NCBI GenBank assembly: GCA_017448355.1
Contig: JAFSLQ010000012.1
Location: 26,942 to 90,941, forward strand
From: Clostridia bacterium
GTDB lineage: Bacteria; Bacillota; Clostridia; Christensenellales; Borkfalkiaceae
DNA length: 64,000 nucleotides
Reading direction: 5' to 3'
The position numbers and the translations under genes were made by a program. This document shows, piece by piece, positions 2,986 to 59,386 of the stretch. Every line of letters begins with the position of its first letter. Positions within the stretch are counted from its first letter, which is position 1. The notes below the pieces were generated by a model. The model searched no databases. It was not told where the DNA came from and worked only from the letters and a program-made list of their open reading frames with translations.

Positions 2986-3002
2986 AAATCTTGAATAAAT
3001 AA

Positions 3003-3032
3003 TTCGCGCCCGACGGGAAAGTCGGGCGCGAA
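3003..3032. terminator. Bidirectional terminator between convergent genes
   Basis: A 12-bp perfect GC-rich stem (TTCGCGCCCGAC / GTCGGGCGCGAA) with loop GGGAAA lies between the end of the Wzz-like pair and the end of the minus-strand lipoprotein gene. It is flanked by A/T-rich sequence on both sides. Confidence 0.8.
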
Positions 3033-3041
3033 ACTTTTAAA

Positions 3042-3701: not shown

Positions 3702-3769
3702 AGTCCACCCCCAAAATAATTGTATGACCGCGCGCCCCGCGCTATGCTTTAAAATATTTATTAAAAAAG

Positions 3770-3798
3770 TTGATTTTTAACGTTTATTTTGTTAAAAT
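3770..3798 (+). promoter_or_regulatory. Promoter for the 3817 gene
   Basis: TTGATT, a 17-bp spacer, then TAAAAT, placed about 20 bp before the ATG at 3817. Close to the vegetative sigma consensus. Confidence 0.6.
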
Positions 3799-3816
3799 TG
3801 TTGTAAGGATAAAAGT

Positions 3817-37400: not shown

Positions 37401-37459
37401 GCCATAATACCTATGAGTTGAGACATAACGATAACTTTTATATTTATAACGGAGATATG

Positions 37460-38995: not shown

Positions 38996-39045
38996 AAAAT
39001 CGCGTTGATTTAGAGACGTATATGGTTTTTAAACTATTGTTGCTT

Positions 39046-39085
39046 AAAAGAGAGAACGAAAATGAAAAAGAGAGAACGAAAATGA
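39046..39085 (+). repeat. 20-bp tandem duplication covering ribosome site and start codon
   Basis: Two exact 20-base units (AAAAGAGAGAACGAAAATGA) lie side by side. The second carries the ATG of the DUF4838 gene (39082). The first carries an ATG at 39062 that opens a 7-codon frame (MKKRERK) and stops at TGA 39083-39085, overlapping the real start as ATGA. Confidence 0.9.
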
Positions 39086-41085: not shown

Positions 41086-41125
41086 CTTAACCATTGTAAA
41101 GTTACCAAAAAAGGAGAAAAGCAAC

Positions 41126-42721
41126 ATGAAGAAAGTGGGCACATTGTTACTTGCAGTATGTATTTTGATAGCAAGTACGGGTTGCGGAGCATCACAGGGT
41201 TTCGACCCGAACAAGAAACAGGTTTTCGTTTCGATATTCAACGGCGGGTTCGGATACGACTGGCTGGAAACTTCTGCGCAGGAATTCAATGCGGCTAACA
41301 CGGACACGGAAATAATCATACGTCCGAATAGCGACGGTTATACAAAGATTCGTGCTGACCTTGAAGCGGGAACTTCTCAGTATGACGTGTATTTTACGAA
41401 TACTCCGCTTATTAAAGAGTTTGCTGCCATGGGGCTTGTCGAACCGCTTAACGACGTTTATGAAATGCAGGCAGATGAAGGCAATCCCCGTACGATAAGA
41501 GAGAAAATAATTGATTACGATACTTTTAAGACGGCATTTTCCGGTAGTGACGGAGATACGATGTACGCTTTGCCGCATACGGACGCAATGGAAGGCTTTA
41601 TATACGATCACGATCTATTCGTGGAAAAAGACCTATTGTTCAAAAATCCCGACGGCAGTTTAACCGTCGGTAAAGACGGAATTCCGAACACATACGACGA
41701 CGGATTGCCCGTAGACATTGAAGAGTGGGAAGAGTTGTTGGAAAACATAAAATCGGAAGGCATTTATCCGTTTATTTGGAATCGACAGTTTACCGATTAC
41801 TTTAATTGTATAAATGAAGCAATGTGGGCTCAATATGACGGTGTGGATAACTATCTTATTTCATTTAATTACAATGGCACTTATGTAAATCCGTCGACGC
41901 AGGAACAGGTTGGCATTACGCAGGAAACGGGCTATAAGGCGTACGCGATGGAAGGTAAGAAAAAAGCTGTTGAATTTATGGACAGATATATGACGGGCAG
42001 ATATTTTACGGGCGGTCAGGAATATATCCATCCTGCGGCGAAAAAACTCGGCACTTCTCACAGAGACGCGCAAGATGCCTTTATTCTTGGCTATAAAAAC
42101 GCGTCCAGCAACCCGAGAAGTGCAATGATAGTTGAAGGCGTCTGGTGGGAAAATGAAGCGAGAAACATGTTCAACACTTTGGAAAGACAAGGCGAAACGT
42201 CGCAAAAATACGGCACGAGAGATTTTAGATTTATGCCGTTACCAGATATGGACGACGGTAAAAACGAAAAGAGCGTATTTTACATTTCCGAAAACGCGAC
42301 TATTTTCATTAAAAAGCAGTCCGACGCAGTAAAATTAGACGCGGCTAAAAGATTTATCGCTTACACCTGTACAGATAAAGTGTTAAAACGCTTTACTATC
42401 GCCACCAACGGTATGAGAGCATACAAGTACGACTTGTCGCCCGAAGAACTCGCTCAACTTACAAATTTAGGCAGAAACGCTTATGCGATATATCATGATA
42501 CCGAACACGTTCAACTCATAAGACCCACAATTGAAAGATTTAAGTCTCAGTTAAACTACGCTATAACTCCGTCGGCGCAGAGATGGGTGGCAAAAATAGG
42601 AAATACTACGCCGAGCGAAGCATTCGACGCATTACAAACCGTGAATGCTAATACTTACTGGACGGCAATGCTTGAATATAATAACGCGGAGCGTTGGGCA
42701 GGATATTTAAACAAACTGTAA
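41126..42721 (+). CDS. ABC sugar-transporter solute-binding lipoprotein
   Basis: About 531 residues, family 1 extracellular solute-binding protein with lipobox ASTGC. VFVSIFNGGFGYDWLETSAQEFNA, then YTKIRADLEAGTSQYDVYFTNTPL and YALPHTDAMEGFIYDHDLF fit the fold of the LplA/UgpB-like oligosaccharide-binding group. It captures the sugar for the permease pair next to it. The ATG at 41126 has a strong AAGGAG upstream; a longer frame overlaps the previous gene. Confidence 0.92.
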   Translation: MKKVGTLLLAVCILIASTGCGASQGFDPNKKQVFVSIFNGGFGYDWLETSAQEFNAANTDTEIIIRPNSDGYTKIRADLEAGTSQYDVYFTNTPLIKEFAAMGLVEPLNDVYEMQADEGNPRTIREKIIDYDTFKTAFSGSDGDTMYALPHTDAMEGFIYDHDLFVEKDLLFKNPDGSLTVGKDGIPNTYDDGLPVDIEEWEELLENIKSEGIYPFIWNRQFTDYFNCINEAMWAQYDGVDNYLISFNYNGTYVNPSTQEQVGITQETGYKAYAMEGKKKAVEFMDRYMTGRYFTGGQEYIHPAAKKLGTSHRDAQDAFILGYKNASSNPRSAMIVEGVWWENEARNMFNTLERQGETSQKYGTRDFRFMPLPDMDDGKNEKSVFYISENATIFIKKQSDAVKLDAAKRFIAYTCTDKVLKRFTIATNGMRAYKYDLSPEELAQLTNLGRNAYAIYHDTEHVQLIRPTIERFKSQLNYAITPSAQRWVAKIGNTTPSEAFDALQTVNANTYWTAMLEYNNAERWAGYLNKL

Positions 42722-42739: not shown

Positions 42740-43654
42740 ATGGCACACAAACAGAAAATAACAAAACACAAAGCAGCCGAAAAATTATTCATATTCGCCA
42801 TATTGTTGTATCCGATGCTGCAATTCTGCGTTATGTATATAGGTGTAAATGCAAATTCGATTTTACTTGCATTTAAAAAATACGACGTGGATTTTAACGT
42901 AAGTTTTGCGGGATTCAGTAATTTTGTTTACGGATTTAAGATGCTTTTTTCCGGCGAATTGATTTTTATAGCGGCGAAAAATTCGATTTTGATATTTTTA
43001 ATAACTCTTGTGATAGGGTTACCGCTTAACATGCTGTTCAGTTACTATATATTCAAGAAGAAATTTGCATCAGGGGCAGTACGTTTTATAATTTTAATGC
43101 CCTCTATGGTTTCGCATATGGTAATGGGACTTATGTTTGTTAAGTTTGTGGAAAATGTCGTGCCTGCGGCTCTGGGCAGTTTCAACATAGAAGTGCCTAA
43201 CTTGTTTTTGGACGACAGATACAATCTCGGAATAATAATATTCTATATTATGTGGACGGGATTTACTTCGAGTCTTATTATGTATCCGAACGCTATGAGC
43301 GCGATATCCGGTGAAATAATTGAAAGCGCGAAACTTGACGGTGTAAGCGAATTGCAAGAATTATGGTATATAATAATACCTTTGATATATCCTACGATAA
43401 CGACCTATATGGTTACGGGCGTAGCGGCGATATTCAGTTTTTCGGGACCTTTATTTATCATATACAATTACAACGCGCCTAGCAACGTGTACAACACGGG
43501 GTATTATCTGTTTAAGAAAGTTATGGCGGGTGACGGGTTAAGGGATTACCCGCACGCGGCGGCGGTAGGTTTGATTTTTACGTTTATTTCCGCACCGCTG
43601 ACACTCGGCGTCAGGAATTTAATGGAAAAATTCGGGCCGCAAGCGGAAGATTAA
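42740..43654 (+). CDS. ABC sugar-transporter permease 1 (LplB/UgpA type)
   Basis: A 304-residue membrane protein with six helices and the cytoplasmic EAA loop (AISGEIIESAKLDGVSELQELWYIIIPLI) that contacts the ATPase. It pairs with the next permease to form the channel for the oligosaccharide delivered by the adjacent binding protein. Confidence 0.93.
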   Translation: MAHKQKITKHKAAEKLFIFAILLYPMLQFCVMYIGVNANSILLAFKKYDVDFNVSFAGFSNFVYGFKMLFSGELIFIAAKNSILIFLITLVIGLPLNMLFSYYIFKKKFASGAVRFIILMPSMVSHMVMGLMFVKFVENVVPAALGSFNIEVPNLFLDDRYNLGIIIFYIMWTGFTSSLIMYPNAMSAISGEIIESAKLDGVSELQELWYIIIPLIYPTITTYMVTGVAAIFSFSGPLFIIYNYNAPSNVYNTGYYLFKKVMAGDGLRDYPHAAAVGLIFTFISAPLTLGVRNLMEKFGPQAED

Positions 43655-43666
43655 GGAGAAAGGATT

Positions 43667-44542
43667 ATGAGAAAAACTATTTTATCGAATATTATAATGA
43701 TTATTTCCGCAATAATCCTGATACTTTTTTGCATCAGTTTGTTGCTACCTTTTTTCTGGATGCTCATAACGTCTTTCAAAGATCCGATCGATTATATTCT
43801 CAACACTTTCGGATGGCCGACAAAGATGATGTTCAGCAATTATCCGTCGGTTATAGAATTGTTAAGCGTAACTGTCGTTTCGGGTGGCGCGGTTGTCGAA
43901 TATAAAATATGGAATATGTTGTTTTTCAGTCTTATAATCGCGGTCGTTTCGGGTTTTATGAACGTTTTCGTGCCTACTATAACCGCATATATAGTATCTA
44001 AATATAATTTCAAAGCAAAACGGCTTATCTATAACGTAGCGATAATCGTCATGATAATTCCGATTGTCGGCAACCTTCCTTCGGCGTTAAGGGTAACACA
44101 AGCGCTTGGTATATACAATAATATTATTCCGTATCTGGTGTTTACGGCAGGACCTTTCGGGTTCAACTTTATACTTATGTACGGCGCGTTTAAATCCCTT
44201 TCGTGGTCGTATGCCGAGGCGGCGTTTATCGACGGAGCGGGGCATTTTACGGTAATGTTCAGGATTATGTTTCCTATGATAATGCCTACGTTTTCCACTT
44301 TGTTTATACTCGGCTTTATAGCGCACTGGAACGATTATATGGTTCCCATTACGTTTTTACCGAGTTATCCGAACCTTGCGTACGGCATGTATAATTTCCA
44401 GTTGGAAGCGTCGAGAATAGGCGCGGCAATGCCGGAAATATTAGCGGGATTCGTTATAGTGTCTATCCCTACCTGCGTTATGTATTTAGGTTTGCAGAGA
44501 TTCGGACTTAAAAACGTCAGAATGGGCGGATTAAAAGGTTAA
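43667..44542 (+). CDS. ABC sugar-transporter permease 2 (MalG/YtcP type)
   Basis: A 291-residue membrane protein with six helices and the EAA loop (SWSYAEAAFIDGAGHFTVMFRIMFPM). No ATP-binding protein of the MsmX/MalK type follows; in Clostridia a shared housekeeping ATPase usually energises such systems. Confidence 0.93.
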   Translation: MRKTILSNIIMIISAIILILFCISLLLPFFWMLITSFKDPIDYILNTFGWPTKMMFSNYPSVIELLSVTVVSGGAVVEYKIWNMLFFSLIIAVVSGFMNVFVPTITAYIVSKYNFKAKRLIYNVAIIVMIIPIVGNLPSALRVTQALGIYNNIIPYLVFTAGPFGFNFILMYGAFKSLSWSYAEAAFIDGAGHFTVMFRIMFPMIMPTFSTLFILGFIAHWNDYMVPITFLPSYPNLAYGMYNFQLEASRIGAAMPEILAGFVIVSIPTCVMYLGLQRFGLKNVRMGGLKG

Positions 44543-44571: not shown

Positions 44572-46701
44572 ATGAAAAAAGCACATTTAACAGGTGTTTT
44601 CGTATTGATTTGTGTGGCTTTTGTGTTTTTCGCAAGCGCAATACTCTCTATGATCGCACATGCCGCAAATTATTATGAAGCACAAAGCGGTATAACTATA
44701 CATCAGAACTATGATATTACAACCGCAAACGACGGCGCATACGCAAGTAAAAGTGTTGACCCGTCCTTGTTTTCTGACGGTTCATATTATACCGCACTTT
44801 ATTCTGGCGGAACTGTCGACGTAACTAACGGGTATATGTACGAAGCGGCTGCAAGCGGCGAAACTTCCACAGTACGGCTTTTCGATGAATACAGTGGCAC
44901 GTTCAGCATATTCGGTCAGGGCTTTTACGATGCGAACAGTAGCCCTTACGATTACGGTAAATTGTCGTTTACTTTTACGAATTTAGCGAACACGAGACAA
45001 TATATCAGTTTTTCGTTCTATCAAACGGCATCTAATTATTTGACTTTTAACGCTTACTATTACGATTTAGACGTTCAGGAAACCGCCATATATAAGACTG
45101 CATCCGATATGAATTTAATGGCAAGTTTTACCGCAACGTCGGCTTGGATGACGGGAACGAAGAAAACCGCGCTTAAATTCTCCTACAATAATTCTACCCA
45201 AGCGTTAGATTTAAGGAATTCGAGTAGTGCCGGAAGTCATAATTTAAATACTTTGCTTGGAACAACTCTTACCGCGTTCTCGTCTTACTCCGTAGATATG
45301 ACGTTCGAGAACAAGGATAGGGAACATACCGCAAAGTTCATTATTTACGAACTGTGCGGAAACCTGCTTGACGTGGTTGTACAAGATAACTACGATATTA
45401 CCACCGCAAACGACGGCGCATACGCAAGTAAAAGCGTTGATCCGAATAATTTCGGTGCAACGTCTTACTATACGGGACTTTATTCGGGCGACAGGCTTGA
45501 CGTGACAAAAGGGCGTTTATATATGGCGGCAGCGAAAAATGCGACTTCCACTATAAGACTGTTTAACGTGCATAGCGGAACTTTCAGCATCGTCGGTCAG
45601 GGCTTTTACGATGCGGATAACAGGACATACGATTATAACAGATTAACGTTTCAGTTCACGAATACGGCGAACACTAATCAATATATTAAACTTGTATTTA
45701 TACAAAAAGCAAATGATGATTATTTAGAACTTGCCGCTTACTACTATGATAAGGGCATTCAGACTTCTGCAATTAATCAGATGTCGTCCAATATGAAGCT
45801 TATGGCAAGTTTTACCGCGACGTCGAATTATATGACGAATAAAAATAAAACCGCGCTTAAATTCTCTTATGACAATTCTACCCAAGCGTTAAACTTGGCA
45901 AATTCGGGCAGTACAAAAGACCATAACTTAAATACTCTTTTAAGCACAACGCTTCCTACGTTTAGTTCTTACTCGGTGGATATGGCGTTCGAACAGAAAG
46001 GGCAAACAAATACCGCGAAGTTTATAGCATACGAACTGTGCGGAGCAAACTTTTCGGAAGCAAGAACAATGACCGTTAAGGATATGGCGGGCGAAACCGT
46101 TTCAGAAAGCACGGTATTCAAAGGGCAGACAGTTATCCTTCCCGCGGATAAAGCGGCGGGATTTGTCGGGTGTATGATTGACGGCGAAATCTATCCCGCG
46201 GGTTATAAATATACGGTAAGAACGAATTTCGAAATGCAAAAAATGGTAATTTCCCCGACAATGATATCCGGCGCTTATATAAGGTTGACTACCGAGAATA
46301 ATTACGGCGGAATAAGGTTCGGGATAAAAGTGAACGACAACGATATGGACGCGTTCGGCGAGAATATAGAAATGCACGGCGTAATTATCAGGACTGCAAA
46401 TATTGTCGGCGAGTTCGATTTGGACGAGGCGAAAAGCGTAGATAAAGCGTTGGATAATTATTTTACGGACGGCGACGACAGGATGTATTTTATAGCGCTG
46501 ACCGATATCGATAGCGCAAACTATAATACGAGTTATTCTGTCCGCGCGTATTTGAAGATAACGATGTACGATGGCAGTTACGTAAAACGCGCCACGGATT
46601 ATTCGGCGGAAAATAACGCGCGCACACCTTACGACGTTGCGGCAAAAGCCAAAGAAGAAGGATACAGCGGCGCAGTTATAGACGAATATCTCGGTCTATA
46701 A
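44572..46701 (+). CDS. Secreted repeat protein A (two copies of a novel domain)
   Basis: A 709-residue exported protein. Signal peptide 1-31 ends in AHA before ANYYEAQSGIT. Residues ~46-263 and ~273-493 are two copies of a ~220-residue beta-rich domain not known to me, with conserved GQGFYD, FTFTN..N..QYI.FSF, HNLNTLL and AKFI.YELCG. Residues ~500-709 hold a linker with TVKDMAGETVSESTVFKGQ and a domain beginning GAYIRLTTENNYGGIRFGI that occurs in clostridial secreted carbohydrate proteins. No anchor is visible. It follows the sugar importer directly. Confidence 0.72.
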   Translation: MKKAHLTGVFVLICVAFVFFASAILSMIAHAANYYEAQSGITIHQNYDITTANDGAYASKSVDPSLFSDGSYYTALYSGGTVDVTNGYMYEAAASGETSTVRLFDEYSGTFSIFGQGFYDANSSPYDYGKLSFTFTNLANTRQYISFSFYQTASNYLTFNAYYYDLDVQETAIYKTASDMNLMASFTATSAWMTGTKKTALKFSYNNSTQALDLRNSSSAGSHNLNTLLGTTLTAFSSYSVDMTFENKDREHTAKFIIYELCGNLLDVVVQDNYDITTANDGAYASKSVDPNNFGATSYYTGLYSGDRLDVTKGRLYMAAAKNATSTIRLFNVHSGTFSIVGQGFYDADNRTYDYNRLTFQFTNTANTNQYIKLVFIQKANDDYLELAAYYYDKGIQTSAINQMSSNMKLMASFTATSNYMTNKNKTALKFSYDNSTQALNLANSGSTKDHNLNTLLSTTLPTFSSYSVDMAFEQKGQTNTAKFIAYELCGANFSEARTMTVKDMAGETVSESTVFKGQTVILPADKAAGFVGCMIDGEIYPAGYKYTVRTNFEMQKMVISPTMISGAYIRLTTENNYGGIRFGIKVNDNDMDAFGENIEMHGVIIRTANIVGEFDLDEAKSVDKALDNYFTDGDDRMYFIALTDIDSANYNTSYSVRAYLKITMYDGSYVKRATDYSAENNARTPYDVAAKAKEEGYSGAVIDEYLGL

Positions 46702-46743
46702 TTGTATCGTGCGTTTATATATTAAAAATTGAGGTGATTTATT

Positions 46744-46869
46744 ATGAAGAGATATAATTCTCCTGAAATATTTGTTGATACCGTACAAGTTAAAGACGTA
46801 TTAACGGTTTCTGAAACCGAAGCGTTGAAGGGTGACAATGTGTTCATCGATGATGAATTAGGCGGATAA
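46744..46869 (+). CDS. Small protein, 41 residues, unknown function
   Basis: Begins MKRYNSPEIFVDTVQVKD and ends VFIDDELGG. A good GAGGTG site lies 8 bp before the ATG and the reading frame fills the gap between the two largest-homology secreted proteins. Small proteins of the general form M.KY..PEIE....DVI are common next to secreted proteins in Clostridia, but no role is known. It has no signal peptide and no Cys. The alternatives are a leader peptide of the next gene or a precursor of a modified peptide. Confidence 0.65.
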   Translation: MKRYNSPEIFVDTVQVKDVLTVSETEALKGDNVFIDDELGG

Positions 46870-46908
46870 CCTAATTAGAAAATTTAATCTTAGGGGAGAT
46901 AAATATTT

Positions 46909-49900
46909 ATGTTAGGAATAAAAATAACGAGAAAGACGAAGACCGTTATGCAACTGTTTTTTGCGCTTGCGCTAACGGTAACGTTAGTATTTGCGATATT
47001 CGCGGGTTTCTATGCACACGCCGCAAATTATAACGAAGCACAAAGCGGAATAACGATTCATGGAAACTATGATATTACTACCGCAAATTCCGGCGCATAC
47101 GCAAGTAAAAGCGTTGTTCCGTCTAACTTCAGTAGTGGTTCGTACTATACGACGCTTTATGCGGGCGGAACTGTCGACGTAACTAACGGGTATATGTACG
47201 AAGCGGCGGCGAGCGGGATAACTTCCACCGTACGGCTTTTTGACGAATACAGCGGCACATTCAGCATATTCGGTCAGGGCTTTTACGATGCGAACAGCAG
47301 TCCTTTCGATTACGGCAAACTGTCGTTTATTTTCACTAATACGGCTAATACGAAACAGTATATCAAGTTTTCGTTTACCCAAAGCGCGTCTAATTATCTG
47401 GCGTTTAACGCTTATTACTACGATTTAGACGTTCAGGAAACCGCCGTGTATAAGACTGCATCCGATATGAATTTAATGGCAAGTTTTACTGCAACATCGA
47501 ATTATATGACGAATAAAAATAAAACCGCGCTTAAATTCTCTTACAACAATTCTACCCAAGCGTTAGATTTAAGAAATTCGAGTAGTGTCGGAAGTCATAA
47601 TTTAAATACTTTGCTTGGAACAACTCTTACCGCGTTCTCGTCTTACTCGGTGGATATGTCGTTTGAGAACAAGGATGAAGAACATACCGCGAAGTTTATT
47701 ATTTACGAACTGAGCGGAAAACTGCTTGATATAGGCGTACATGATAATTACGATATTACCACCGCAAACGACGGTGCATACGCAAGTAAAAGTGTTGATC
47801 CGTCTAATTTCGGTGCAACGTCTTACTATACGGGACTTTATTCCGGCGACAGGCTTGACGTAACAAAAGGGCGTTTATATATGGCGGGGAAGAAAAATAC
47901 GACTTCCACTATAAGATTGTTTGACGAGCATAGCGGAACTTTCAGCATCGTCGGTCAGGGCTTTTACGACGAAAGCAGCAGTCCTTTTGATTACACCAGA
48001 TTAACGTTTACTTTCACGAATACAGCGAACACTAATCAATATATCAAGTTTGTATTCATACAAAACGCGTCTAATTATCTTGAGTTTAACGCTTACTACT
48101 ACGATAAGGGTATTCAGGACTCCGCCATTAATAGGATGTCGTCTAATATGGCACTTATGGCAAGTTTTACCGCAACGTCGAATTATATGACGAATAAAAA
48201 TAAAACCGCACTTAAATTCTCTTACAATAATTCTACCCAAGCGTTAGATTTAAGAAATTCGGGTAGTGCCGGAAGTCATAATTTAAATACTTTGCTTGGA
48301 ACAACTCTTACCGCGTTCTCGTCTTATTCGGTGGATATGGCGTTCGAGTATAAACACCAGACCACCACCGCGAAGTTTATAGCGTACGAACTGTGCGGAG
48401 TAAACTTTTCGGAAGCAAAAACTATGACCGTTAAGGATATGGCGGGCGAAACCGTTTCAGAAAGCACGGTATTTAAAGGACAGACCGTTACTATTCCCAC
48501 GGATAATGCGGCAGGATTTGTCGGGTATATGATTGACGGCGAAATCTATCCCGCGGGTTACAAATATACCGTAAGCACGAATTTTGAAATGCAAAAAATG
48601 GTAATTTCTCCGACAATGATGTCCGGCGCTTATATAAGGCTGACGATTGACGAGACTTATCACGGCGGAATAAGGTTCGGGATAAAAGTGAACGACGAAG
48701 ATATGGAAGCGTTCGGCGAAAATATAGAAATGCACGGCGTACTTATCTATACGGAAGATATAGAAGGCGACTTCGATTTAGACGAGGCAAACAGCGTGGA
48801 TAAAGCGTTGAATAATTATTGTACGGACGGCGACGACAGAATGTATTTTATAACGCTGACCAACATCAAAAGCGGACACTATAATACAAGTTATTCAGCC
48901 CGTGCGTATTTGAAAATAACGATGTACAATGAAAGTTACGTAATACTCGCCACGGATTATTCGGCGGAAAATCATGCCCGTTCGCCGTACAACGTCGCTT
49001 TGAAGGCGTTGGATGCGGGATACAGCGGCGCGGTTATCGACGAATATTTAAACAAAAAAATTATAGCGAGAAACGGAAGCGCGTATTACAAAATATTGAT
49101 ACCGGACGATCACGACGAAGCGATTGAGTTTGCGGCAACGGAAATGTCTTATTTTATTAACGAAATAACGGACGTGAACGTCGACATAATAGAAGAAACG
49201 GATTATAACGGTTCAGACAAGGTCATTTCGATAGGCGAAACGGAATTATCGTCTGATATAGTTGCAGATGCAGACGCACTCAATAATGACGGATTTATAC
49301 TCAAAACGGTAGGCGACAATATATTCATAAAAGGCGCGTATTCAAGAGCCACGATATACGGCGTTTACGATTTTATCGAAAGGATGATGGGCGTTAAATT
49401 CATCGCGGAAGATTACACCTATATTCCGAGAGCGCAAGAAGTGTATTCTTCTTCTCTCGATATAACCGAAGTGCCTGCTTTTGCGACGAGAAGTTATTTT
49501 GCTAAAAACATCATATATGACGGGCTTTTTGCCGCCCGTATGAGAATGATTGCGCCGTTTGATACTAATTTACCGCAGTATGGCGGCGGATACCTTTCTG
49601 AGTGGAGCACTAACGAGCTGCATTCTATGTTCGATTTATTGCCGCCGAGTACCTATTATGAAGATTATCCCGAGTGGTATACAATGTCGTCAGCAACCGA
49701 TAAAGGACAGGTGTGTTTTACTAACGGTGTAACCGACGACGGGAAAATCGATAACACTATGGAAACCAGTGTTATCAAAGAAACGATAAGCAATATCAAA
49801 GCGATTTTGTTGGCAAACGAAAACATTAAATACGTAATGGTAGGACAGCAGGACAACGCAGATTTCTGTGAGTGTGAAAATTGCTTGGCGTCTTATGATA

Positions 49901-50961
49901 GGTTCAACGGACTTAAAAGCGGAACGGTTATGGTATTCGTTAATCTTATCGCCGAAGAAATAGAAAAATGGGCGGAAGATGAACTTGACGGAAGAGAGGT
50001 TTATATCGTTACATTTGCTTATCAGTTTACCGAAGAGCCGCCTGTAACGGTCGATGGAGACGATATAGAAGCGATAAGCGAACAGGTTATACCTAGAGAT
50101 AACGTGTACGTTTTAATAGCGCCAAGCAATGCTTGTTATTATCATTCGATATTCGACGAAGATTGCGACCGCAACGCAAATAGCAGAACGTATATCAACG
50201 GTTGGAACACTATTACGGATAACTTGATGATATGGGATTATCAGACGAATTTTGATTATCATCAGTGGTATTTCGACAATAAAAACGCGATAAAAGATAA
50301 TCTTATAGAGTACCGCGACATGGGCGTGGAAATGCTGATATGTCAGGCAGCACCGAGAGAGTCAAAACATTATTTGGCGGATCTTGATAATTATATCTTT
50401 TCTAAACTTATGTGGGATCCTGAAAGGTATAATACTATCGACGAGTTGGTAGAAGAATTTAACTTTTACTATTACGGAGAGTATCACGACGTTGCAGATG
50501 AATTCTATCAGATGATGGAAGACCACTTTGCAGACTTAGACACCAATCTCGATCATGCATTCCATACAGAGTTGAGAGATGGCAACAGCGCATTTTTCAA
50601 CTACGAAAATTATCCGATAGAATTTTTGGAAGAAGCGGAAGGGTTGATTCAGGACGCGATCGATGCAATTCAGGACGACGAAAATCTGACGGAAGATGAA
50701 AAACTCGAAATGACTTTCAGGCTTACAAAGATTATCGTTATACCGAAAATGATGATATTAAAGAATTACGACAGTTATTACGAAAGCGGGAAAAAAGATT
50801 TTGCGAGAGAGGTAATAAGTAATTTGGAATATGTCGGCGCAAAATATTATGCTGAAAATATGAAGCGCACTATATTTGAGTTAAAGATCAAATACGGGCT
50901 TACCGAAGAGATTTTTGTTAACGGTGATACGTTATTCTCGGATAGTGAAATCCCTGTATAA
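46909..50961 (+). CDS. Secreted repeat protein B fused to a DUF4838 module
   Basis: A 1350-residue exported protein. Signal peptide ends AHA before ANYNEAQSGIT. Two copies of the ~220-residue novel domain (about 51-270 and 278-500), the TVKDMAGET linker and the GAYIRL... domain (about 505-705) are the same as in the previous protein. From ~715 to the end is a complete GH67N-like plus DUF4838 part (FAATEMSYFINEITD, MVGQQDNADFCECENCL, ICQAAPRESKHYLADL) closely matching the lipoprotein at 39082. It is therefore a fusion of two genes present separately in the locus. GGGGAGA precedes the ATG. Confidence 0.75.
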   Translation: MLGIKITRKTKTVMQLFFALALTVTLVFAIFAGFYAHAANYNEAQSGITIHGNYDITTANSGAYASKSVVPSNFSSGSYYTTLYAGGTVDVTNGYMYEAAASGITSTVRLFDEYSGTFSIFGQGFYDANSSPFDYGKLSFIFTNTANTKQYIKFSFTQSASNYLAFNAYYYDLDVQETAVYKTASDMNLMASFTATSNYMTNKNKTALKFSYNNSTQALDLRNSSSVGSHNLNTLLGTTLTAFSSYSVDMSFENKDEEHTAKFIIYELSGKLLDIGVHDNYDITTANDGAYASKSVDPSNFGATSYYTGLYSGDRLDVTKGRLYMAGKKNTTSTIRLFDEHSGTFSIVGQGFYDESSSPFDYTRLTFTFTNTANTNQYIKFVFIQNASNYLEFNAYYYDKGIQDSAINRMSSNMALMASFTATSNYMTNKNKTALKFSYNNSTQALDLRNSGSAGSHNLNTLLGTTLTAFSSYSVDMAFEYKHQTTTAKFIAYELCGVNFSEAKTMTVKDMAGETVSESTVFKGQTVTIPTDNAAGFVGYMIDGEIYPAGYKYTVSTNFEMQKMVISPTMMSGAYIRLTIDETYHGGIRFGIKVNDEDMEAFGENIEMHGVLIYTEDIEGDFDLDEANSVDKALNNYCTDGDDRMYFITLTNIKSGHYNTSYSARAYLKITMYNESYVILATDYSAENHARSPYNVALKALDAGYSGAVIDEYLNKKIIARNGSAYYKILIPDDHDEAIEFAATEMSYFINEITDVNVDIIEETDYNGSDKVISIGETELSSDIVADADALNNDGFILKTVGDNIFIKGAYSRATIYGVYDFIERMMGVKFIAEDYTYIPRAQEVYSSSLDITEVPAFATRSYFAKNIIYDGLFAARMRMIAPFDTNLPQYGGGYLSEWSTNELHSMFDLLPPSTYYEDYPEWYTMSSATDKGQVCFTNGVTDDGKIDNTMETSVIKETISNIKAILLANENIKYVMVGQQDNADFCECENCLASYDRFNGLKSGTVMVFVNLIAEEIEKWAEDELDGREVYIVTFAYQFTEEPPVTVDGDDIEAISEQVIPRDNVYVLIAPSNACYYHSIFDEDCDRNANSRTYINGWNTITDNLMIWDYQTNFDYHQWYFDNKNAIKDNLIEYRDMGVEMLICQAAPRESKHYLADLDNYIFSKLMWDPERYNTIDELVEEFNFYYYGEYHDVADEFYQMMEDHFADLDTNLDHAFHTELRDGNSAFFNYENYPIEFLEEAEGLIQDAIDAIQDDENLTEDEKLEMTFRLTKIIVIPKMMILKNYDSYYESGKKDFAREVISNLEYVGAKYYAENMKRTIFELKIKYGLTEEIFVNGDTLFSDSEIPV

Positions 50962-50993
50962 TTTAAAATTTTTAGGATAGGAGATAAAATTTT

Positions 50994-53000
50994 ATGAACA
51001 GGAAAAAAGTGGTTTATTTTTTAACATCCGTTATTAAAACGGGGCTGAGTTTTTTGGTGGTGGCACTGTTGTGTTTTTTCTTTGGTTCGTTTAATAGAGT
51101 CTATGCCGCAAATTACGACGAAGAACAAAGCGGTATAACGCTTTACCAAAACTATGATGTTACTACCGCAAACGTAGGTGCGTATGCGGGTAAAAGCGTT
51201 GACCCGTCCTTATTTTCTGCCGGTTCGTACTATACGGCACTTTATTCGGGAGGAACGGTTGATATTACCAGCGGGTATATGTACGAAGCGAATAAAAAAG
51301 GCGTAACTTCTAAAGTAAGATTATTAGACGAGTATCGCGGGACGTTCAGCATTTTCAGTCAGGGCTTTTACAATGCGGACATAAGTCCTTACGATTACGG
51401 CAGATTAGCGTTTATTTTCACTAATACGGCTAATACGAAACAATATATCAAGTTTTCATTTACCCAAAGCGCGTCTAATTATCTGGCGTTTAACGCTTAC
51501 TACTACGATTTAGACGTTCAGGAAACCGCCGTGTATAAGACCACGTCCGATATGAATTTAATGGCAAGTTTTTCCGCAACATCGAATTATATGACGGCAA
51601 AGAAAAAAACTGCGTTAAAATTCTCTTATAACAATTCTACCCAAGAGTTAAACTTAGCGAATTCGGGCAGCGTCAAAGATCATAATTTAAATACTCTTTT
51701 AAGCGCGACGCTTCCTACGTTTAGTTCTTACTCGGTGGATATGGCGTTCGAGAACAAGAGTCAGGCAAATACCGCAAAGTTTATTATTTACGAACTTTGC
51801 GGTCAGGTACTCGCGGGCGAAACCTTGACGGATACGGCAACGCCGATAATGTTGTCGGTGGGCGCATCCGTAGCAGACGGCAAATTGACTGCGAAAGCAT
51901 ACGACTTGGTGGACGGCGTAATAACGAACGGGTTCGTTTTTACGGTGGAAGACCCACAAGGGCAAGATGTAACGAACGTTGACGACAGTAGTATTTTTCA
52001 TCCTGAAACGACGGGCGAATATACGATTACCGCGTACGTTTTAGACGCGTCAAATAGACAATCCGACGTGATGGAAAACACTATCACGGTAGAGCCCGAT
52101 ACGGAAAAGCCCAAAATAACCGTGGACGGAAATTACAGACAATATTACCTTAAAGGCGAAACCCTTGAAATTCTTCCGTTTACTGCGACCGATGAAAGCG
52201 GAATAAAGGAGAGCGGAGTTCGTGCCGAAAAAGGCAGTCAACCCGTAGAAATATCGAAAGGCACTCTTGCGTTAAACAGTTTGGGCGAATATACGATTAT
52301 TTATTATGCCTTCGACAACTTCGATAACGAAAACGAGTCAGAATTCACCTTAAACGTTACGGAAATTACCGTTGCCGAAAAGATTATTCTCGAAGGGGAC
52401 GGTGTCGCGCAAAGCATCCCGCAACTAGTTACACCTTCCGGCTGGAATTATTCTTTCACTATGAAAGACAAGTCGGGTAATGATGTAAACTTGGAAAACG
52501 GCGCGTACGTTTTTAACGAAGTTCAAAAATACACGGTTTATTATTCGGTTATACCGGAATCTGAAACCACGGCAAAATTCCATTATCAGACGGAAATAGA
52601 GATAACTGATACAACTAAACCCGTTATTACTCTTTCGGGCGAATATGAAAAAGAATACGAATCGAATTACGAACTGTCGATAATCAGCGCGACGGTTACG
52701 GATAATTGCAAAGATCCGAAACTTACAGTCGAAGTGTTATACGACGGACTTAAAGCGGAGATAGGAGCGGATAACAAGGTAAAACTCGATAAAGCGGGTA
52801 AGTACGTTGTAAGGTATACGGCTACCGACGCGTCCGGTAACAGCGAAGTTTTGTCAGTTGAATTACAGGTAAACGAAACTGTAACCGACGTCGGATCTTC
52901 CTGCAACTCTAATATAAATTCCGGAAACGCTTTGTTGTTGGCGGTTGTTCTTCTTGCTTTTGCTGTTTTTTTGCGGAAAAGAATAAAAAAACATAATTAA
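50994..53000 (+). CDS. Secreted repeat protein C with Ig-like domains and C-terminal membrane anchor
   Basis: A 668-residue exported protein. After the signal peptide it has ANYDEEQSGIT and one copy of the novel ~220-residue domain (to about 270, ending AKFIIYELCGQ). Then come three to four Ig-like beta domains (each ~90 aa, with TDTATPIMLSVGASV, DTEKPKITVDGNYRQYY, DTTKPVITLSGEYE). The end is SGNALLLAVVLLAFAVFLRKRIKKHN: one transmembrane helix and a basic tail, without an LPxTG. It is likely membrane-tethered by that helix. Confidence 0.72.
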   Translation: MNRKKVVYFLTSVIKTGLSFLVVALLCFFFGSFNRVYAANYDEEQSGITLYQNYDVTTANVGAYAGKSVDPSLFSAGSYYTALYSGGTVDITSGYMYEANKKGVTSKVRLLDEYRGTFSIFSQGFYNADISPYDYGRLAFIFTNTANTKQYIKFSFTQSASNYLAFNAYYYDLDVQETAVYKTTSDMNLMASFSATSNYMTAKKKTALKFSYNNSTQELNLANSGSVKDHNLNTLLSATLPTFSSYSVDMAFENKSQANTAKFIIYELCGQVLAGETLTDTATPIMLSVGASVADGKLTAKAYDLVDGVITNGFVFTVEDPQGQDVTNVDDSSIFHPETTGEYTITAYVLDASNRQSDVMENTITVEPDTEKPKITVDGNYRQYYLKGETLEILPFTATDESGIKESGVRAEKGSQPVEISKGTLALNSLGEYTIIYYAFDNFDNENESEFTLNVTEITVAEKIILEGDGVAQSIPQLVTPSGWNYSFTMKDKSGNDVNLENGAYVFNEVQKYTVYYSVIPESETTAKFHYQTEIEITDTTKPVITLSGEYEKEYESNYELSIISATVTDNCKDPKLTVEVLYDGLKAEIGADNKVKLDKAGKYVVRYTATDASGNSEVLSVELQVNETVTDVGSSCNSNINSGNALLLAVVLLAFAVFLRKRIKKHN

Positions 53001-53060
53001 AGCGTTGATTTAAAAACCTTACTAAACCTGATAAATTACAGTACGAGGAGCGAAGTGTTT

Positions 53061-56000
53061 ATGGCTTGTAAAAAAACTATTCAGAAAATATTTATATTAC
53101 TCGCAATGTCTGCTTTATGTTTCGGCGGATTTTCGCTGTCGTTCGCTATGGCGACGAATTACAACGAAGAGCAAAGCGGCATTACCTTGTATAAAAATTA
53201 TAATATTTATACTGCAAGCGGCGGCGCGTACGCGGATTATTTTATAGATTCCGCGGCTATTTCTTCCGAATACCATAAATCCTATTTTTCGGGCGGAACA
53301 ATAAATTTCAGCAGCGGATATATGTACGAAGCCGACAAACAGGGTTCTACTTCCGTTGTAAGGCTTTTAGACGAATATAGCGGCGAATTCAGTATAGCGG
53401 GTCAGGGATTTTACGACGATATTCATTTAGATAACGCGACTACCGTTGCCGATTATCAGAGATTAGCCTTTATTTTCACTAATACGGCGAATACTAATCA
53501 ATATATAAAGTTTTCGTTCGGACAATCGTATTATGATTATCTGATACTTAATGCTTATTATTATGATTTGGGCATTCAGGCGGGTGCGATTTATAAAACG
53601 ACTACAGGTATGAATCTCCTTTCGAGTTTTTCCGGTAAAGCAAGGTTTTATAATAATAAAAATATTCCGTTTAAATTTTCGTATGACATCGCTGAGCAAG
53701 TGTTTGGTGCGGCAGATACCGGTAGTACAATCAATCATAACCTAAACTATTTTTTGGGCGCGGAATTGCCGTCTTTCGACACTTATTCCGTAGATATATC
53801 GTTTGAAAATAAGAGTCAGCAAAATACTGCAAAGTTTATCGTGTACGAACTCTGTGGGCAGGTTTTTGCTGGCGAAACCCCTGTAAATACTGCTGGAGCG
53901 AGAATTTTTGTCAAACCTTCATATAAAATAGTCGCCGATTTCGAATATACCGTTCCGACTCCGAAGATTTATGACGTTTTAGACGGCAACTTGTCCGAAC
54001 AAGCGACTTGTCGAGTCTTATACGGCGACATTGATGTACAGGTGAGCGGTAGGAAGTTTATGCCGATCGGTTCTTCGGACGTTTATACGATAATTTACAG
54101 CGTAACCGATTCGGGAAATATCGTGACGGAAAAGTCTATCGAAGTCGACGCGCTTGCTTTTATCCCGCGCAACGAAATCGAATTTTCGGGTGATATTGAC
54201 GAAGTTTATCCTAACGGCACTCTGGTCAACGTGCCTTCGCTTAAAGTTTATTCCGGACTTGCCTATGAGATGACATCTTTACCGTATTATACGCTTATCC
54301 AAAAAGACGGCGTTGTGTTGAAGAGAATAGATGAAGAACAAGAAAGAAGTTATAGAATAAACGACACGGGCAGATACGATATAGTTTATACGTTTTTCAA
54401 CGAACTCGGAGTGGTGGCGACCGAAACTAAAAGTTTTATTTCCGAAAATATTCCGCATTTTTCCGAAACGGAAATTCCCGAATATGTTTTCATAGGACGG
54501 GAATTTTACGTGCCCGAATTCTATCTTATTTACGGGGACGAACAGTTATTAGCCGATTTTGAAGTATTCTCTCCGATAAATGAAAAAATCGACGTGCAGG
54601 AAAGAATATTTGTTCCTCAGGAAAAGGGCGATTATACTATCGTTTTTACGAAAGAGTATAACGACCGTTTATATACTAAAACCTGCGTGTTAAATAGCGG
54701 TATCGGCGCGGCTATGCTTATCGAGAATGTGTCGGGCGTTTTGTCTGTCAAAGGAAACGAAGATTTGCCGTCTTATTCTGTAAGCGGCAACGGCGTCAAG
54801 GTTTTGGCGGATTCGCGAACGAGTACTTTTAAGTTCGTAAATCCGATAGACCTTAACTATATGGACGAGGAAACGAACTTAATAGCGTTGCAGGTTCTTT
54901 CGGGCGAAGGTTACGCGAGTTTTACGGAATTGATAATAGAACTTATCGATGCGGAAGATTCGCAAAATACGGTAAAATTCAAGTATAGGTACAATCAATG
55001 GAACGATACTTACAGTTACGTTCTGCTGAATTATAACGGAAAATCTTTGGGTATCCGCAACGAGGCGGGGCATATCGGCGAAGTGGATAATTACTTCGGA
55101 ACGGTTACGCATAACTCGTTCAACGGGTATAAATACAGCAATAAAGAAACTTTTGCAGTCCGCGTAAACTACGAAGAAAGGCAGTTTTTCGTAAGAGAAA
55201 TAAACGACAGGTTCAGGCTGTTGCTTGACGCCGATGACCCCGAGCAGGTAGGCGACAATATTTGGAACGGTTTTAAGTCGGGGCGAGTATACGTTCAGGT
55301 CAGTATGCAAACGCTCTACGACGTTGGCGGAGTTATAGTGACGGAACTTGGCGGACAATCGCTTTCAGGTAACGTTTTAGAAGACAACGTGCCGCCTAAC
55401 GCGTATTTTGAAAAAAATATTCATATTTCGGATTATTCCGATATGCCGCAAGGCGTAAAGGGATACGAATACAAGTTGCCGATTGTCGGTGCGGAAGATT
55501 TGTTTTCAACGTCTTGCACAATTATAAGGAGTCTCTATTACGTCGGGTCAGCGGGAGACGAGCCGATCGAAGTGGAAAGCGGCGTGAACGTTTTTACACC
55601 GAGTAAGACGGGGAATTATAAGATTTTATATACCGTTTCGGACTCGTACGGTAACAGTAAACTTATTATATTAAACTTTACGGTCGAAGAAAACAGAGAA
55701 ATAGAGATCAATTTCGAAACGGTGCCGTCTGCCGCGATTGTCGGAGAAAGATATTATATTCCCGTGATTGTGGTGAGCGGTTCGTCGGGTAAAGCCATAC
55801 TCGAATATTCCGTTTTCTACAACGGTAGGGAAATACAACTTTCGAGAAATAGACGCGTTTATACCGATAGTGTTGGCGAAATAAAAATCGTTTATAGAGT
55901 CAGTGACTATATCGAAGAAAATATCAGCGGAGAATTTGTTTTACCCGTTGGCGGTTCTAATTATCCGATAATAGAAATTTTAGACGCTATGCCGTTGACT

Positions 56001-57377
56001 GTCGTAGAAGAAACTGTTTTCACTTTGCCTACGTTTGACGTTAAAAATACGGGCAATGGTCCTTCTGAAATACCCTTACGGGTAGAAGTAGACGGCGAAA
56101 TTTTGTCCGGAAACAGTTTTATTGTAACAAAAAACGCGGGAGAGCGGATAAGTATCGTAGTTTACGCCGGAAACGAACCGTATGTAAGCGAGAAATCTTA
56201 TTCGGTTACTGTTATAAAACCCGTTTATTTATCTGATTATATTGTTGCGGATAACCCCGAAAGCGTTGAGAGGATTAACGGGAAATTTTATACCGAAATT
56301 GTAACGCCGCAAGACAATATTATCAGTTTGCCGAATCCTATTGTTTGCGATGATTTAATTTTAAGTTTTGACGTCAACGATGCGATGAACGTGGGGTTTG
56401 CAAACAAATATTGTGAAAGCGTAGATTTAGTATTATTTGATTCTGTTTATCGTGAAGACAGGGAGATAGTGATTACTGTAATACCCGATACCGACGAAAA
56501 ATCTAAGTTGATTCTAAACGGTGACAATACTAATGTCATTTCAATCAGCGGATCGTTTTACAACGCTAACAGTGTATTTTATTTAATGTTTGATAGCAAA
56601 ACAAAAACTTTACGTGACATAAACGGAAATTTACTGTTTAGCATTTCGGAATTTGAAAACGGGGATTATTTTGAAGGGTTCAGTGGCGGTGCAGCATATT
56701 TATCGTTTTATATTAAAGGCGTCGATATCGGTAAAACCGTATCTTTGAAAATAATTCAGGTATCTAATCAAGCGTTTACGTCGACTTATAAAAAAGGCGA
56801 ATTACAAGTTTATAACGATACCACTCCACCCGTCCTGTATCTCGGTCAAAGATTATACAATTTTTCGACTGATTTAAATAGCGAGTTGGTTGTTCCATTT
56901 GCTTATTCCTACGACGTTTTAGGTGGAAAGAAAAATGTAAAGATAACGTTGATCGCTCCTGACGGGAATAAAGTTATTGAAAACGCTGACTGCAATGAAA
57001 ACATATCTTACTTTTTGAATAAATACGGCACATATACTATACGATATATAACTGAGAATAACGGGAAAAATTATTTCGTTGAATATTATGTAAAAGTCAA
57101 ATATAAGTTTAAACCGGAAATAAACGTAAATGGTTCTATAAAAGAAGAATACGCCGTCGCCGATGATATCGTTATCCCTGATGCCGTGATTATCAATGAC
57201 AGTAGAGAAGATTGCGAGTTGTTTGTGTTTATACAAACCCCGTCTGCAAGACTGATAGATATTACAGATAAAATGCAGATAAATTTCAAAGAAAAAGGCG
57301 ATTACCGTTTGATATACTATGCGGTAGATTCCGAGTATAATTTTTCGGAAAAGGTATTTAAGTTTACGGTCAAGTAA
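53061..57377 (+). CDS. Secreted repeat protein D with many Ig-like domains
   Basis: About 1438 residues, exported (hydrophobic leader, then TNYNEEQSGITLYKNYN). Residues ~50-275 hold a more diverged copy of the novel domain (EYSGEFSIAGQGFYDD, FTNTANTNQYIKFSF, AKFIVYELCGQ). The rest is a chain of Ig-like and beta-sandwich modules, including two regions that look like carbohydrate- or surface-binding jelly rolls (NYMDEETNLIALQVLSGEG; NPIVCDDLILSFDVNDAM). No anchor is visible at the end. The start is either ATG 53061 or GTG 53055; GAGGAG at 53045-53050 favours neither clearly. Confidence 0.7.
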   Translation: MACKKTIQKIFILLAMSALCFGGFSLSFAMATNYNEEQSGITLYKNYNIYTASGGAYADYFIDSAAISSEYHKSYFSGGTINFSSGYMYEADKQGSTSVVRLLDEYSGEFSIAGQGFYDDIHLDNATTVADYQRLAFIFTNTANTNQYIKFSFGQSYYDYLILNAYYYDLGIQAGAIYKTTTGMNLLSSFSGKARFYNNKNIPFKFSYDIAEQVFGAADTGSTINHNLNYFLGAELPSFDTYSVDISFENKSQQNTAKFIVYELCGQVFAGETPVNTAGARIFVKPSYKIVADFEYTVPTPKIYDVLDGNLSEQATCRVLYGDIDVQVSGRKFMPIGSSDVYTIIYSVTDSGNIVTEKSIEVDALAFIPRNEIEFSGDIDEVYPNGTLVNVPSLKVYSGLAYEMTSLPYYTLIQKDGVVLKRIDEEQERSYRINDTGRYDIVYTFFNELGVVATETKSFISENIPHFSETEIPEYVFIGREFYVPEFYLIYGDEQLLADFEVFSPINEKIDVQERIFVPQEKGDYTIVFTKEYNDRLYTKTCVLNSGIGAAMLIENVSGVLSVKGNEDLPSYSVSGNGVKVLADSRTSTFKFVNPIDLNYMDEETNLIALQVLSGEGYASFTELIIELIDAEDSQNTVKFKYRYNQWNDTYSYVLLNYNGKSLGIRNEAGHIGEVDNYFGTVTHNSFNGYKYSNKETFAVRVNYEERQFFVREINDRFRLLLDADDPEQVGDNIWNGFKSGRVYVQVSMQTLYDVGGVIVTELGGQSLSGNVLEDNVPPNAYFEKNIHISDYSDMPQGVKGYEYKLPIVGAEDLFSTSCTIIRSLYYVGSAGDEPIEVESGVNVFTPSKTGNYKILYTVSDSYGNSKLIILNFTVEENREIEINFETVPSAAIVGERYYIPVIVVSGSSGKAILEYSVFYNGREIQLSRNRRVYTDSVGEIKIVYRVSDYIEENISGEFVLPVGGSNYPIIEILDAMPLTVVEETVFTLPTFDVKNTGNGPSEIPLRVEVDGEILSGNSFIVTKNAGERISIVVYAGNEPYVSEKSYSVTVIKPVYLSDYIVADNPESVERINGKFYTEIVTPQDNIISLPNPIVCDDLILSFDVNDAMNVGFANKYCESVDLVLFDSVYREDREIVITVIPDTDEKSKLILNGDNTNVISISGSFYNANSVFYLMFDSKTKTLRDINGNLLFSISEFENGDYFEGFSGGAAYLSFYIKGVDIGKTVSLKIIQVSNQAFTSTYKKGELQVYNDTTPPVLYLGQRLYNFSTDLNSELVVPFAYSYDVLGGKKNVKITLIAPDGNKVIENADCNENISYFLNKYGTYTIRYITENNGKNYFVEYYVKVKYKFKPEINVNGSIKEEYAVADDIVIPDAVIINDSREDCELFVFIQTPSARLIDITDKMQINFKEKGDYRLIYYAVDSEYNFSEKVFKFTVK

Positions 57378-57523: not shown

Positions 57524-59386
57524 ATGATTAAAAGTGCAAAATGGATTTGGACGAGCGATAAGGAAAGAGAAAACGAGTATTCGGAATTTACTGAAAAGTT
57601 TTGTGTTTCAAACAGCGAAAAAGTAATTCTTAACCTATCTTGCGACGGTGTGTATTCCGTATATATAAACGGAGAACTCGCTGCGTTTTCCGCTTGTGCG
57701 GATTATCCGTGGTATAAATTTTACGATGAGATAGATATAACAAAGTTTTGTAAAAAAGAAAATGAAATTAAAATCGTTGTTTGTCATTTGGGTAAAGACA
57801 GCCAGACTTATATAAAAAATAATGCAGGCGTTATATTTGAAATAACGGCAGGTGGCAAAACGGTAGCGAAAAGCGATAAAAATACCTTGTCGCGCGTTAT
57901 GAACGAGTACAAAAACGGTTACAATAAAATGATAACCTTGCAACTCGGTCAAAGTTTTTTATATGATAACACCGTCATTAAAAGCGAATATTCAAAAAGC
58001 GTTGTAATAGACAAGACCTACGATTTACATAAGCGCAATATAAAAGGGCTTAAACTATGTGAAAGGTTGCCTATAAATACAATCACGAAAGATAATTCCG
58101 TAATTATCGATATGGGCAAAGAAGTCGCGGGGTTTTTGGATTTAGACATCGAAAGTCCTGAAAGCCAAAAACTTTTAATTGCTTACGGCGAACATCTTGA
58201 AGACGGCAGTGTCAGAAGGATAATAGGTCTTAGAGATTTCAGCGTTGAATTTGTAGCGAAAAAAGGCGGTAATAAATATCTTAATGCTTTGCGTCGGCTT
58301 GGCGGCAGATATCTGCAAATATATTCGGATTATCCTATTAAAATAAATTATATAGGTATACGCCCCGTAGAATATCCCGTAACGGTAAAGAAAGCGGAAT
58401 TTTCCGACGAACTTACACAAAGAATATACGATACGTCTGTATATACGTTAAAGTGCTGTATGCACGAGCATTACGAAGACTGTCCGTGGCGTGAACAGGC
58501 GTTATATACGATGGACAGTCGAAACCAGATGCTATGCGGGTATTACGCATTTCAGAATGGAAATAAAGAATACGCAAGGCATAATCTTATACTGATAGCG
58601 AAAGGGTTAAGGACAGACGGGTTATTAAGCCTGTGTTTTCCGACGGGGATAGATATACCGATACCGTTTTTCTCGTTGGTATATCTGATACAGGTTTACG
58701 AATATATTCATTATACGAAAGACGAAAACGTTTTGGAAGAAGTAGGCGGAGTTATAAAGACGATATTCAAAACCTTTGTCGATAAAGTAGAAGAAAACGG
58801 GCTTATACCGACCTTTCCGTATCCTTGCTGGAATTTTTACGAGTGGGCGGAAGAGAGCAATAACGAGTGGCAGATAACGAGAACGAAAGAAGATAAAGAA
58901 ATAAAAAGTTACGACCTGATACTTAATTGTATGTTTGTTTATTGTGCTGATTATTACGAAAAACTTTTCGGTGAAAAGATTTCGGTAGAAAAGACAAAAC
59001 AGGCAATAAAAGAAACCTTTTATAATGGGAAAGAGTATAAATTGTCAACTCATACGAATAAGACAAGTCAACTCGGCAATTCACTTGCGATACTCATAGG
59101 GCTTGGCAACGAAGAACTTGCGGAAAGAATATTGACTGATAATGAAATGATAACGGCAACTCTTTCTATGCGCGCATTTTTATACGACGCGCTATTAACT
59201 TTTGGAGATAAATACAAGGGATATATTTTAAGCGATATAAAAGAGAAGTATAAAATGATGTTGGACGCGGGGGCAACTACTTTCTGGGAAACGGAAAAGG
59301 GTGCTGCGGACTTTGACGGGGCAGGAAGTTTATGCCACGGTTGGAGTGCTATTCCCGTGTATTATTTTTATAATATAATTGATTAA
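57524..59386 (+). CDS. Alpha-L-rhamnosidase-like glycoside hydrolase (GH78)
   Basis: A 620-residue cytoplasmic enzyme. The N-terminus is a beta-sandwich (AKWIWTSDKERENEYSEFTEKF) typical of GH78, and the catalytic (alpha/alpha)6 barrel contains HEHYEDCPWREQALYTMDSRNQ near residues 311-332, where the acidic residues of GH78 lie, and ends SLCHGWSAIPVYYFYNIID. It releases terminal rhamnose from imported oligosaccharides. No signal peptide, so the substrate must come through the ABC system. Confidence 0.88.
   Translation: MIKSAKWIWTSDKERENEYSEFTEKFCVSNSEKVILNLSCDGVYSVYINGELAAFSACADYPWYKFYDEIDITKFCKKENEIKIVVCHLGKDSQTYIKNNAGVIFEITAGGKTVAKSDKNTLSRVMNEYKNGYNKMITLQLGQSFLYDNTVIKSEYSKSVVIDKTYDLHKRNIKGLKLCERLPINTITKDNSVIIDMGKEVAGFLDLDIESPESQKLLIAYGEHLEDGSVRRIIGLRDFSVEFVAKKGGNKYLNALRRLGGRYLQIYSDYPIKINYIGIRPVEYPVTVKKAEFSDELTQRIYDTSVYTLKCCMHEHYEDCPWREQALYTMDSRNQMLCGYYAFQNGNKEYARHNLILIAKGLRTDGLLSLCFPTGIDIPIPFFSLVYLIQVYEYIHYTKDENVLEEVGGVIKTIFKTFVDKVEENGLIPTFPYPCWNFYEWAEESNNEWQITRTKEDKEIKSYDLILNCMFVYCADYYEKLFGEKISVEKTKQAIKETFYNGKEYKLSTHTNKTSQLGNSLAILIGLGNEELAERILTDNEMITATLSMRAFLYDALLTFGDKYKGYILSDIKEKYKMMLDAGATTFWETEKGAADFDGAGSLCHGWSAIPVYYFYNIID

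Follow-up and report, generated by a model that had tools for sequence, protein, structure and literature searches.

Here, we examined a 64,000-nucleotide stretch of DNA (the window) from a Clostridia bacterium (assembly GCA_017448355.1, contig JAFSLQ010000012.1, positions 26,942 to 90,941 of the forward strand), in which four consecutive plus-strand genes, A, B, C, and D, carry between them six copies of a module of ~226 residues (two each in A and B, one each in C and D). In other members of the order, the counterpart of protein D has a fixed slot between an ATP-binding cassette (ABC) importer and a protein of the DUF4838 family, forming a five-gene cassette. By gene order and sequence comparison, this slot has expanded in the window from one protein to A-B-C-D, and the six copies are a divergent, locally amplified branch of the module family of D-like proteins. 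The cassette is a more valuable finding than the module itself. A module family that neither Pfam nor NCBIfam covers, in a fixed position between an importer and a putative enzyme, offers a search key for a type of sugar-uptake locus, and it opens the question of whether the slot protein chooses the substrate, on which the fusion in B bears as one compact protein.

The slot of D-like proteins in related genomes

D-like proteins are long and secreted-type, with immunoglobulin-like (Ig-like) repeats, and were sought in genomes of the order with profile A9 (nine rows, built without the six copies and with the N-terminal modules of the D-like proteins of genomes G204 and G201). This profile picks up copies in A, B, C, and D and matches 10 of 297 genomes; one match, a 258-residue frame at a contig end (G010:C34), was not among the 20 D-like proteins counted outside the window's locus. 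Neighbouring genes, identified by phmmer with the window's own genes, stand in the complete order binding protein, permease 1, permease 2, D-like protein, and DUF4838 protein, all on the same strand, around 15 of the 20, with permease 2 directly upstream in 16 and the DUF4838 gene directly downstream in 17. In the 15 complete cassettes, the coordinate distance of the D-like gene is −567 to 43 to permease 2 and −75 to 18 to the DUF4838 gene; two of the permease 2 distances are negative and represent overlaps, the large one coming from an over-long open frame. Five of the 20 were seeds of A9 (L017, L018, L022, L023, and L030), and the full order surrounds 13 of the 15 non-seed D-like proteins, from 10 genomes (own included) and families f1, f18, and f32. 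Among these 13 are two more complete cassettes of the window genome itself (L064 on contig C53 and L066 on contig C11 of G000), which has 11 DUF4838 matches in all. A preliminary description of the window, made from its letters alone, had placed the module beside a sugar-type importer, and the tie is stronger than was claimed, as the protein carrying the parental module has a fixed slot in three families of the order.

The congener G081 (L017) resembles the window in having A and C between permease and D, with the DUF4838 gene at the other end. As a separate observation, L054 encodes a second protein with the general module (1312-4071, 919 residues, E 5e-11) directly upstream of a binding protein gene.

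The six copies and their parent module family

Within the window genome (1.94 Mb in 60 contigs, completeness 96.7, contamination 5.0), the six copies (Table 1) form an alignment of 232 columns with a mean column identity of 77%, identity to A1 ranging from 51% (D) to 88% (B1). At the DNA level, repeat families D1-D5 cover five copies and families D6-D8 the full set of six, while the six-copy search of the whole assembly returned no seventh at E up to 1. The count of six copies in four secreted-type proteins given earlier is therefore borne out by coordinates, alignment, and DNA repeats; hydropathy places a hydrophobic segment at the N-terminus of each of the four proteins and another, with a basic tail, at the C-terminus of C. 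Some details of the preliminary description needed correction. The positions it gave for the domain (44572, 46909, and 50994) are gene starts and not domain starts, and D may start at GTG 53055 or ATG 53061. The EAQSGIT/EEQSGIT lead-in, said always to precede the domain, does precede the four first copies, but the second copies of A and B abut the first, after LLDVVVQ or LLDIGVH. Of the five motifs quoted as common, none occurs in all six copies: GQGFYD, HNLNTLL, and AKFI.YELCG are each present in five, and NYDITTANDGAYAS and FTNTANT.QYIKFSF each in three, the looser FTN.ANT.QYI being present in every copy.

The descent of the copies was traced by profile comparison. Orthologues of D in G081, G204, and G201 are colinear with it over 1,418-1,461 residues at 52%, 23%, and 22% identity, respectively, and the N-terminal module in G204 and G201 is shorter than the six copies. 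Profile A3 (the six copies plus four from G081) matches this shorter module with an hhalign probability of 95.9 (E 5.7e-9). Profile A10 (19 rows, mean column identity 24%), made without the six copies and without the G204/G201 N-terminal modules, still picks up copies in C (E 4e-6) and A (E 9e-5), and compared directly with A3 it reaches a probability of 82 (E 1.1e-5) versus 0.4 and 0.8% for reversed controls. Within D itself, the second and third modules match each other with 90% hhalign probability, and the third stands at 29% with the G204/G201 N-terminal module. As to the repeats of C and D, Ig-like family PF16403 scores 20.1 bits in C and 21.6 in D, both below the cut-off of 27, and NF047446 scores 42 and 10.6 bits, respectively, its cut-off of 40 being passed by C alone.

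In the databases, the module falls outside defined families. Pfam gave no match over cut-off on it in proteins A-D (other matches there had E above 0.03), NCBIfam gave none, and sequences in the PDB gave no credible match with the six-copy profile and a lowest E of 0.039 with five profiles (A1, A5, A6, A7, and A10). PHROGs, queried with copies A1 and C1 alone, D whole, and the tail of A, returned nothing usable for the two copies (lowest E 0.043 and 0.086) or for D (E 0.0082 over 29 residues at the end of its copy). A Cofilin/ADF (PF00241) hit in A, at 21.1 bits against a cut-off of 22.4 and in a single protein, was taken as chance. Hence, the domain announced as novel is indeed uncatalogued, while strictly new is an overstatement for what is a divergent branch of a wider family, which itself appears uncatalogued as far as the Pfam and NCBIfam scans reach. 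Among the papers listed in literature searches, we also recognised none on the module or the cassette, judging by titles and abstract openings.

Searched with the six-copy profile, 201 genomes of the family gave 3 with a match and 44 genomes of the genus gave 5, the own genome being counted both times; full-length copies were found only in the own genome (six) and G081 (four), with partial matches in G071, G204, and G201. Among 396 genomes of the order, ten-row profile A5 hits two, the own genome and, partially, G330. Profile A10 was run on sparse samples of the class (391 genomes) and the phylum (299 genomes), where it matched the own genome alone. A scan of the genome collection by two peptide patterns yielded no true relative, nor did any of the 88 pattern stretches in viral contigs represent one. 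Two matches were set aside, one in G183 (E 0.002, a 190-residue frame amid metabolic genes, taken as chance) and one in Patescibacteria (L016, 35 residues within an unrelated long protein).

Probable duplication, exchange, and fusion in the window

We infer that tandem duplication, fusion, and gene conversion made the array. In a tree of the ten copies of the two genomes, copies of one genome cluster closely together (window C, A1, B1, A2, and B2, support 100/99; G081 C and A1, 100/99), the other branches being weaker and two ends long; despite this grouping of copies by genome, the C proteins align over their full length between the window genome and G081. Identity is patchy along the module: across codon columns 181-200, B2 shares 97% identity with A1 and with B1 but 65% with A2, compared with 83% between A2 and B2 overall. 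For the five copies other than D, a permutation test was run over 295 polymorphic sites (ten pairs, uncorrected): shared runs were longer than chance at 0/10,000 for A1-B2 and B1-B2, at 1/10,000 for A2-B1 and A2-C, and with p 0.0003 to 0.015 for five more pairs (B2-C, p 0.09). Nine of the ten pairs were thus significant, expected sister pairs included, so that uneven conservation along the module may add to the mosaic signal. Gene conversion between copies would be the simplest reading of the patchy identity, with uneven conservation and repeat assembly as caveats. That the mosaic is an artefact of repeat assembly we consider very improbable: the genome is in 60 contigs, the copies are repeats, and the significance of sister pairs, to which uneven conservation may contribute, speaks for such an artefact, but the shared runs are short (17-58 nt), all six copies lie in open frames, and G081 taken alone also has its A1 and C copies nearer to each other than to the window's.

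Protein B joins two paralogues in frame. Its residues 24-714 are 82% identical to residues 13-707 of A, and its residues 710-1331 are 74% identical to residues 69-687 of the DUF4838 protein X (BLASTP); the DUF4838 model (PF16126) scores 174.8 bits in X and 157.8 in B against a cut-off of 26.6. All 28 columns that at least 17 of 19 aligned DUF4838 proteins conserve are intact in B, which is itself one of the 19. Four cysteine positions within X residues 296-352, conserved in 18 of the 19 cassette DUF4838 proteins, are a possible metal site, and X has a weak match to GH67-type alpha-glucuronidases in the PDB (E 0.012, 76 residues). The enzyme tree pairs X with the enzyme part of B to the exclusion of the G081 enzyme, with support (94/91) just below the tool's mark, and B is missing from the G081 locus, which otherwise contains X, importer, A, C, and D; the fusion is therefore probably younger than the split of X and B from the G081 enzyme, though conversion between X and B could have produced the same tree.

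Table 1. Features of the locus, with positions in the window
Feature	Position	Strand	Basis
ADP-ribosylglycohydrolase-family protein	37235..38995	+	Pfam 4.8e-38
X: DUF4838/GH67N-type protein, putative lipoprotein	39022..41085	+	DUF4838 E 3.4e-51, GH67N 2.6e-8; LSAC lipobox-like motif
Extracellular solute-binding protein of ABC importer	41075..42721	+	SBP_bac_1 5e-14
ABC permease 1	42740..43654	+	BPD_transp_1 1e-10
ABC permease 2	43667..44542	+	BPD_transp_1 2.7e-12
Protein A: hydrophobic N-terminus, two copies, C-terminal tail module	44572..46701	+	
Module copy A1	44686..45363	+	sequence alignment of copies
Module copy A2	45367..46047	+	sequence alignment of copies
Tail module of A, also in B	46048..46698	+	profile match
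Protein B: A-paralogue fused in frame to X-paralogue	46909..50961	+	
Module copy B1	47044..47721	+	sequence alignment of copies
Module copy B2	47725..48402	+	sequence alignment of copies
Tail module of B	48403..49050	+	profile match
DUF4838/GH67N part of B	49036..50901	+	Pfam, BLASTP, tree
Protein C: one copy, Ig-like repeats, C-terminal hydrophobic segment and basic tail	50994..53000	+	
Module copy C1	51129..51806	+	sequence alignment of copies
Protein D: one copy, Ig-like repeats, two further modules; the window's D-like protein	53055..57377	+	
Module copy D1	53175..53861	+	sequence alignment of copies
Second module of D	54702..55370	+	type on which general profile A10 was built
Third module of D	56220..56783	+	profile comparison
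Alpha-L-rhamnosidase-like protein, just downstream of D	57524..59386	+	Bac_rhamnosid6H 1.3e-16

Other features of the locus and its surroundings were recorded alongside. The tail module of A and B ("GAYIRLT...GGIRFGIKV") has no Pfam match within A, and a profile of three rows finds it in 31 of the 151 family genomes searched, the longest open frame with a match having 2,255 residues. ADP-ribosylglycohydrolase-family proteins also occur by the cassettes of G081 (L017, 1176-2702) and G306 (L055, 3363-4946). Elsewhere in the window lie a BspA-type leucine-rich repeat protein of 760 residues (17873-20155) and, just downstream of the locus, an integrase-like fragment under the Pfam cut-off (59598-60050), and a promoter scan found 55 promoters versus 50.8 in shuffles.

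Proposed role and known systems

On balance, we favour the view that the modules capture glycans at the cell surface and feed the ABC importer, as in a polysaccharide-utilisation locus, because they lie between the importer and a putative glycosidase, occur in secreted-type proteins, and in B are joined as a pair to the enzyme. The modules would be surface ligand-binding units, most likely glycan-binding, held off the cell by Ig-like spacers, and would concentrate a polymer or a glycoprotein glycan at the surface; the DUF4838 enzymes would then cut the captured glycan (B having the cutter and two binding modules in one protein), and the pieces would enter the cell through the binding protein and permeases. 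We infer that the host cell is Gram-positive and that the importer cargo is carbohydrate; the locus would thus be of the Gram-positive type, with a dedicated non-catalytic protein as its capture part. A bolder version, which we put forward tentatively and hold to be doubtful, is that the five-gene cassette, recurring in at least three families of one bacterial order, may be a Sus-like machine for capture, cutting, and import that has gone unrecognised and has a glycan receptor family of its own, and that the window slot may be diversifying by duplication, enzyme fusion, and gene conversion into six variant receptors for a varying glycan.

Several observations weigh against glycan capture or against the constancy of the cassette. 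Each copy has 0-1 tryptophan and 18-25 tyrosines, which is unusual for an aromatic sugar platform, and a scan of D by script detected neither a lipobox nor LPXTG nor a hydrophobic anchor at the C-terminus, so that retention of D at the surface is an assumption. The six-copy profile gave no link when compared directly with the second and third modules of D (probability 0.3 and 1.8%). As to the cassette, both D-like proteins of L060 have DUF4838 and no permease in the stretch fetched, L018 has a binding protein only, and that downstream, L030 ends with its contig, and in the window and G081 the DUF4838 gene precedes the importer instead of lying downstream. Nor is the cassette common, since A9 found just those ten genomes of the order.

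Association with the cassette does not discriminate a glycan receptor from a structural role, in which the modules would not bind glycan but would serve as spacers or oligomerisation units, either building up a surface layer or keeping enzyme and binding protein together. This we think unlikely: the Ig-like repeats, the several modules per protein, the fusion to the enzyme in B, and the pairing of a D with no visible anchor and a C with a C-terminal hydrophobic segment would suit it, yet amplification and mosaic exchange of the N-terminal module would be more in keeping with a receptor than with a spacer. Adhesins and surface antigens typically show gene conversion among their repeats, and the permutation-test signal of conversion in these large, repetitive, secreted-type proteins would be consistent with A-D adhering to host tissue, mucus, or other microbes and lying beside the importer through shared regulation; against this, the slot is inside an import cassette in 15 of 20 cases and B is fused directly to a putative glycosidase, and we regard adhesion as decidedly unlikely. 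It is scarcely credible that the modules are themselves catalytic, as no Pfam enzyme family passes its cut-off on them, and the 46 invariant columns, several of them polar, of the ten copies from two genomes (A3) that might suggest catalysis drop to 13 when the G204 and G201 modules are added (A5), with no Asp, Glu, or His among these.

Glycan capture at the surface invites comparison with known systems. SusD, SusE, and SusF are surface glycan-binding proteins of Bacteroidetes, and the likeness is in the proposed role only, namely surface capture feeding a dedicated importer, and not in ancestry; their transporter differs from the window's ABC importer. The modules give the impression of Laminin_G_3/concanavalin-like domains (PF13385) in length and in their extracellular look next to Ig repeats, but differ in that they have no Pfam match to Laminin G, and hhalign comparison with six Laminin_G_3 rows (0.3 and 0.5%) was no better than reversed controls (0.2 and 2.3%). 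Neither the PDB sequence searches nor this comparison backs a named fold; Chou-Fasman propensities fail to tell the modules apart from a permease, and a beta-sandwich would be a guess.

For the enzymes, a table of PMC9870897 labels one DUF4838 protein GH163, and X and B resemble it in passing the DUF4838 cut-off and in having a GH67-type N-terminal domain, while B differs in also having two copies of the new module and a tail module. According to PMC10154615, a GH163 enzyme of Bacteroides thetaiotaomicron removes antennae of complex N-glycans; that activity is described for the Bacteroides enzyme. A parallel in layout is with the Gram-positive polysaccharide-utilisation loci (gpPULs) of Roseburia and Eubacterium rectale (PMC5320581), where, as in the window, an ABC importer with its binding protein lies beside a putative glycan-degrading enzyme. 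Of the components named there, the window has a putative carbohydrate transport system (an SBP_bac_1 protein and two BPD_transp_1 proteins) and, as putative enzymes by sequence, two DUF4838 proteins and the rhamnosidase-like protein, while linkage to a regulator is uncertain, an AraC-type gene (31649-32425) lying 6.6 kb upstream with other genes between; AraC-type genes adjoin the L023 and L058 cassettes. In PMC5320581, gpPUL polysaccharide binding is attributed to modules within enzymes and oligosaccharide binding to ABC components, whereas the cassette described here has a dedicated secreted protein with a slot of its own, represented in the window by four proteins.

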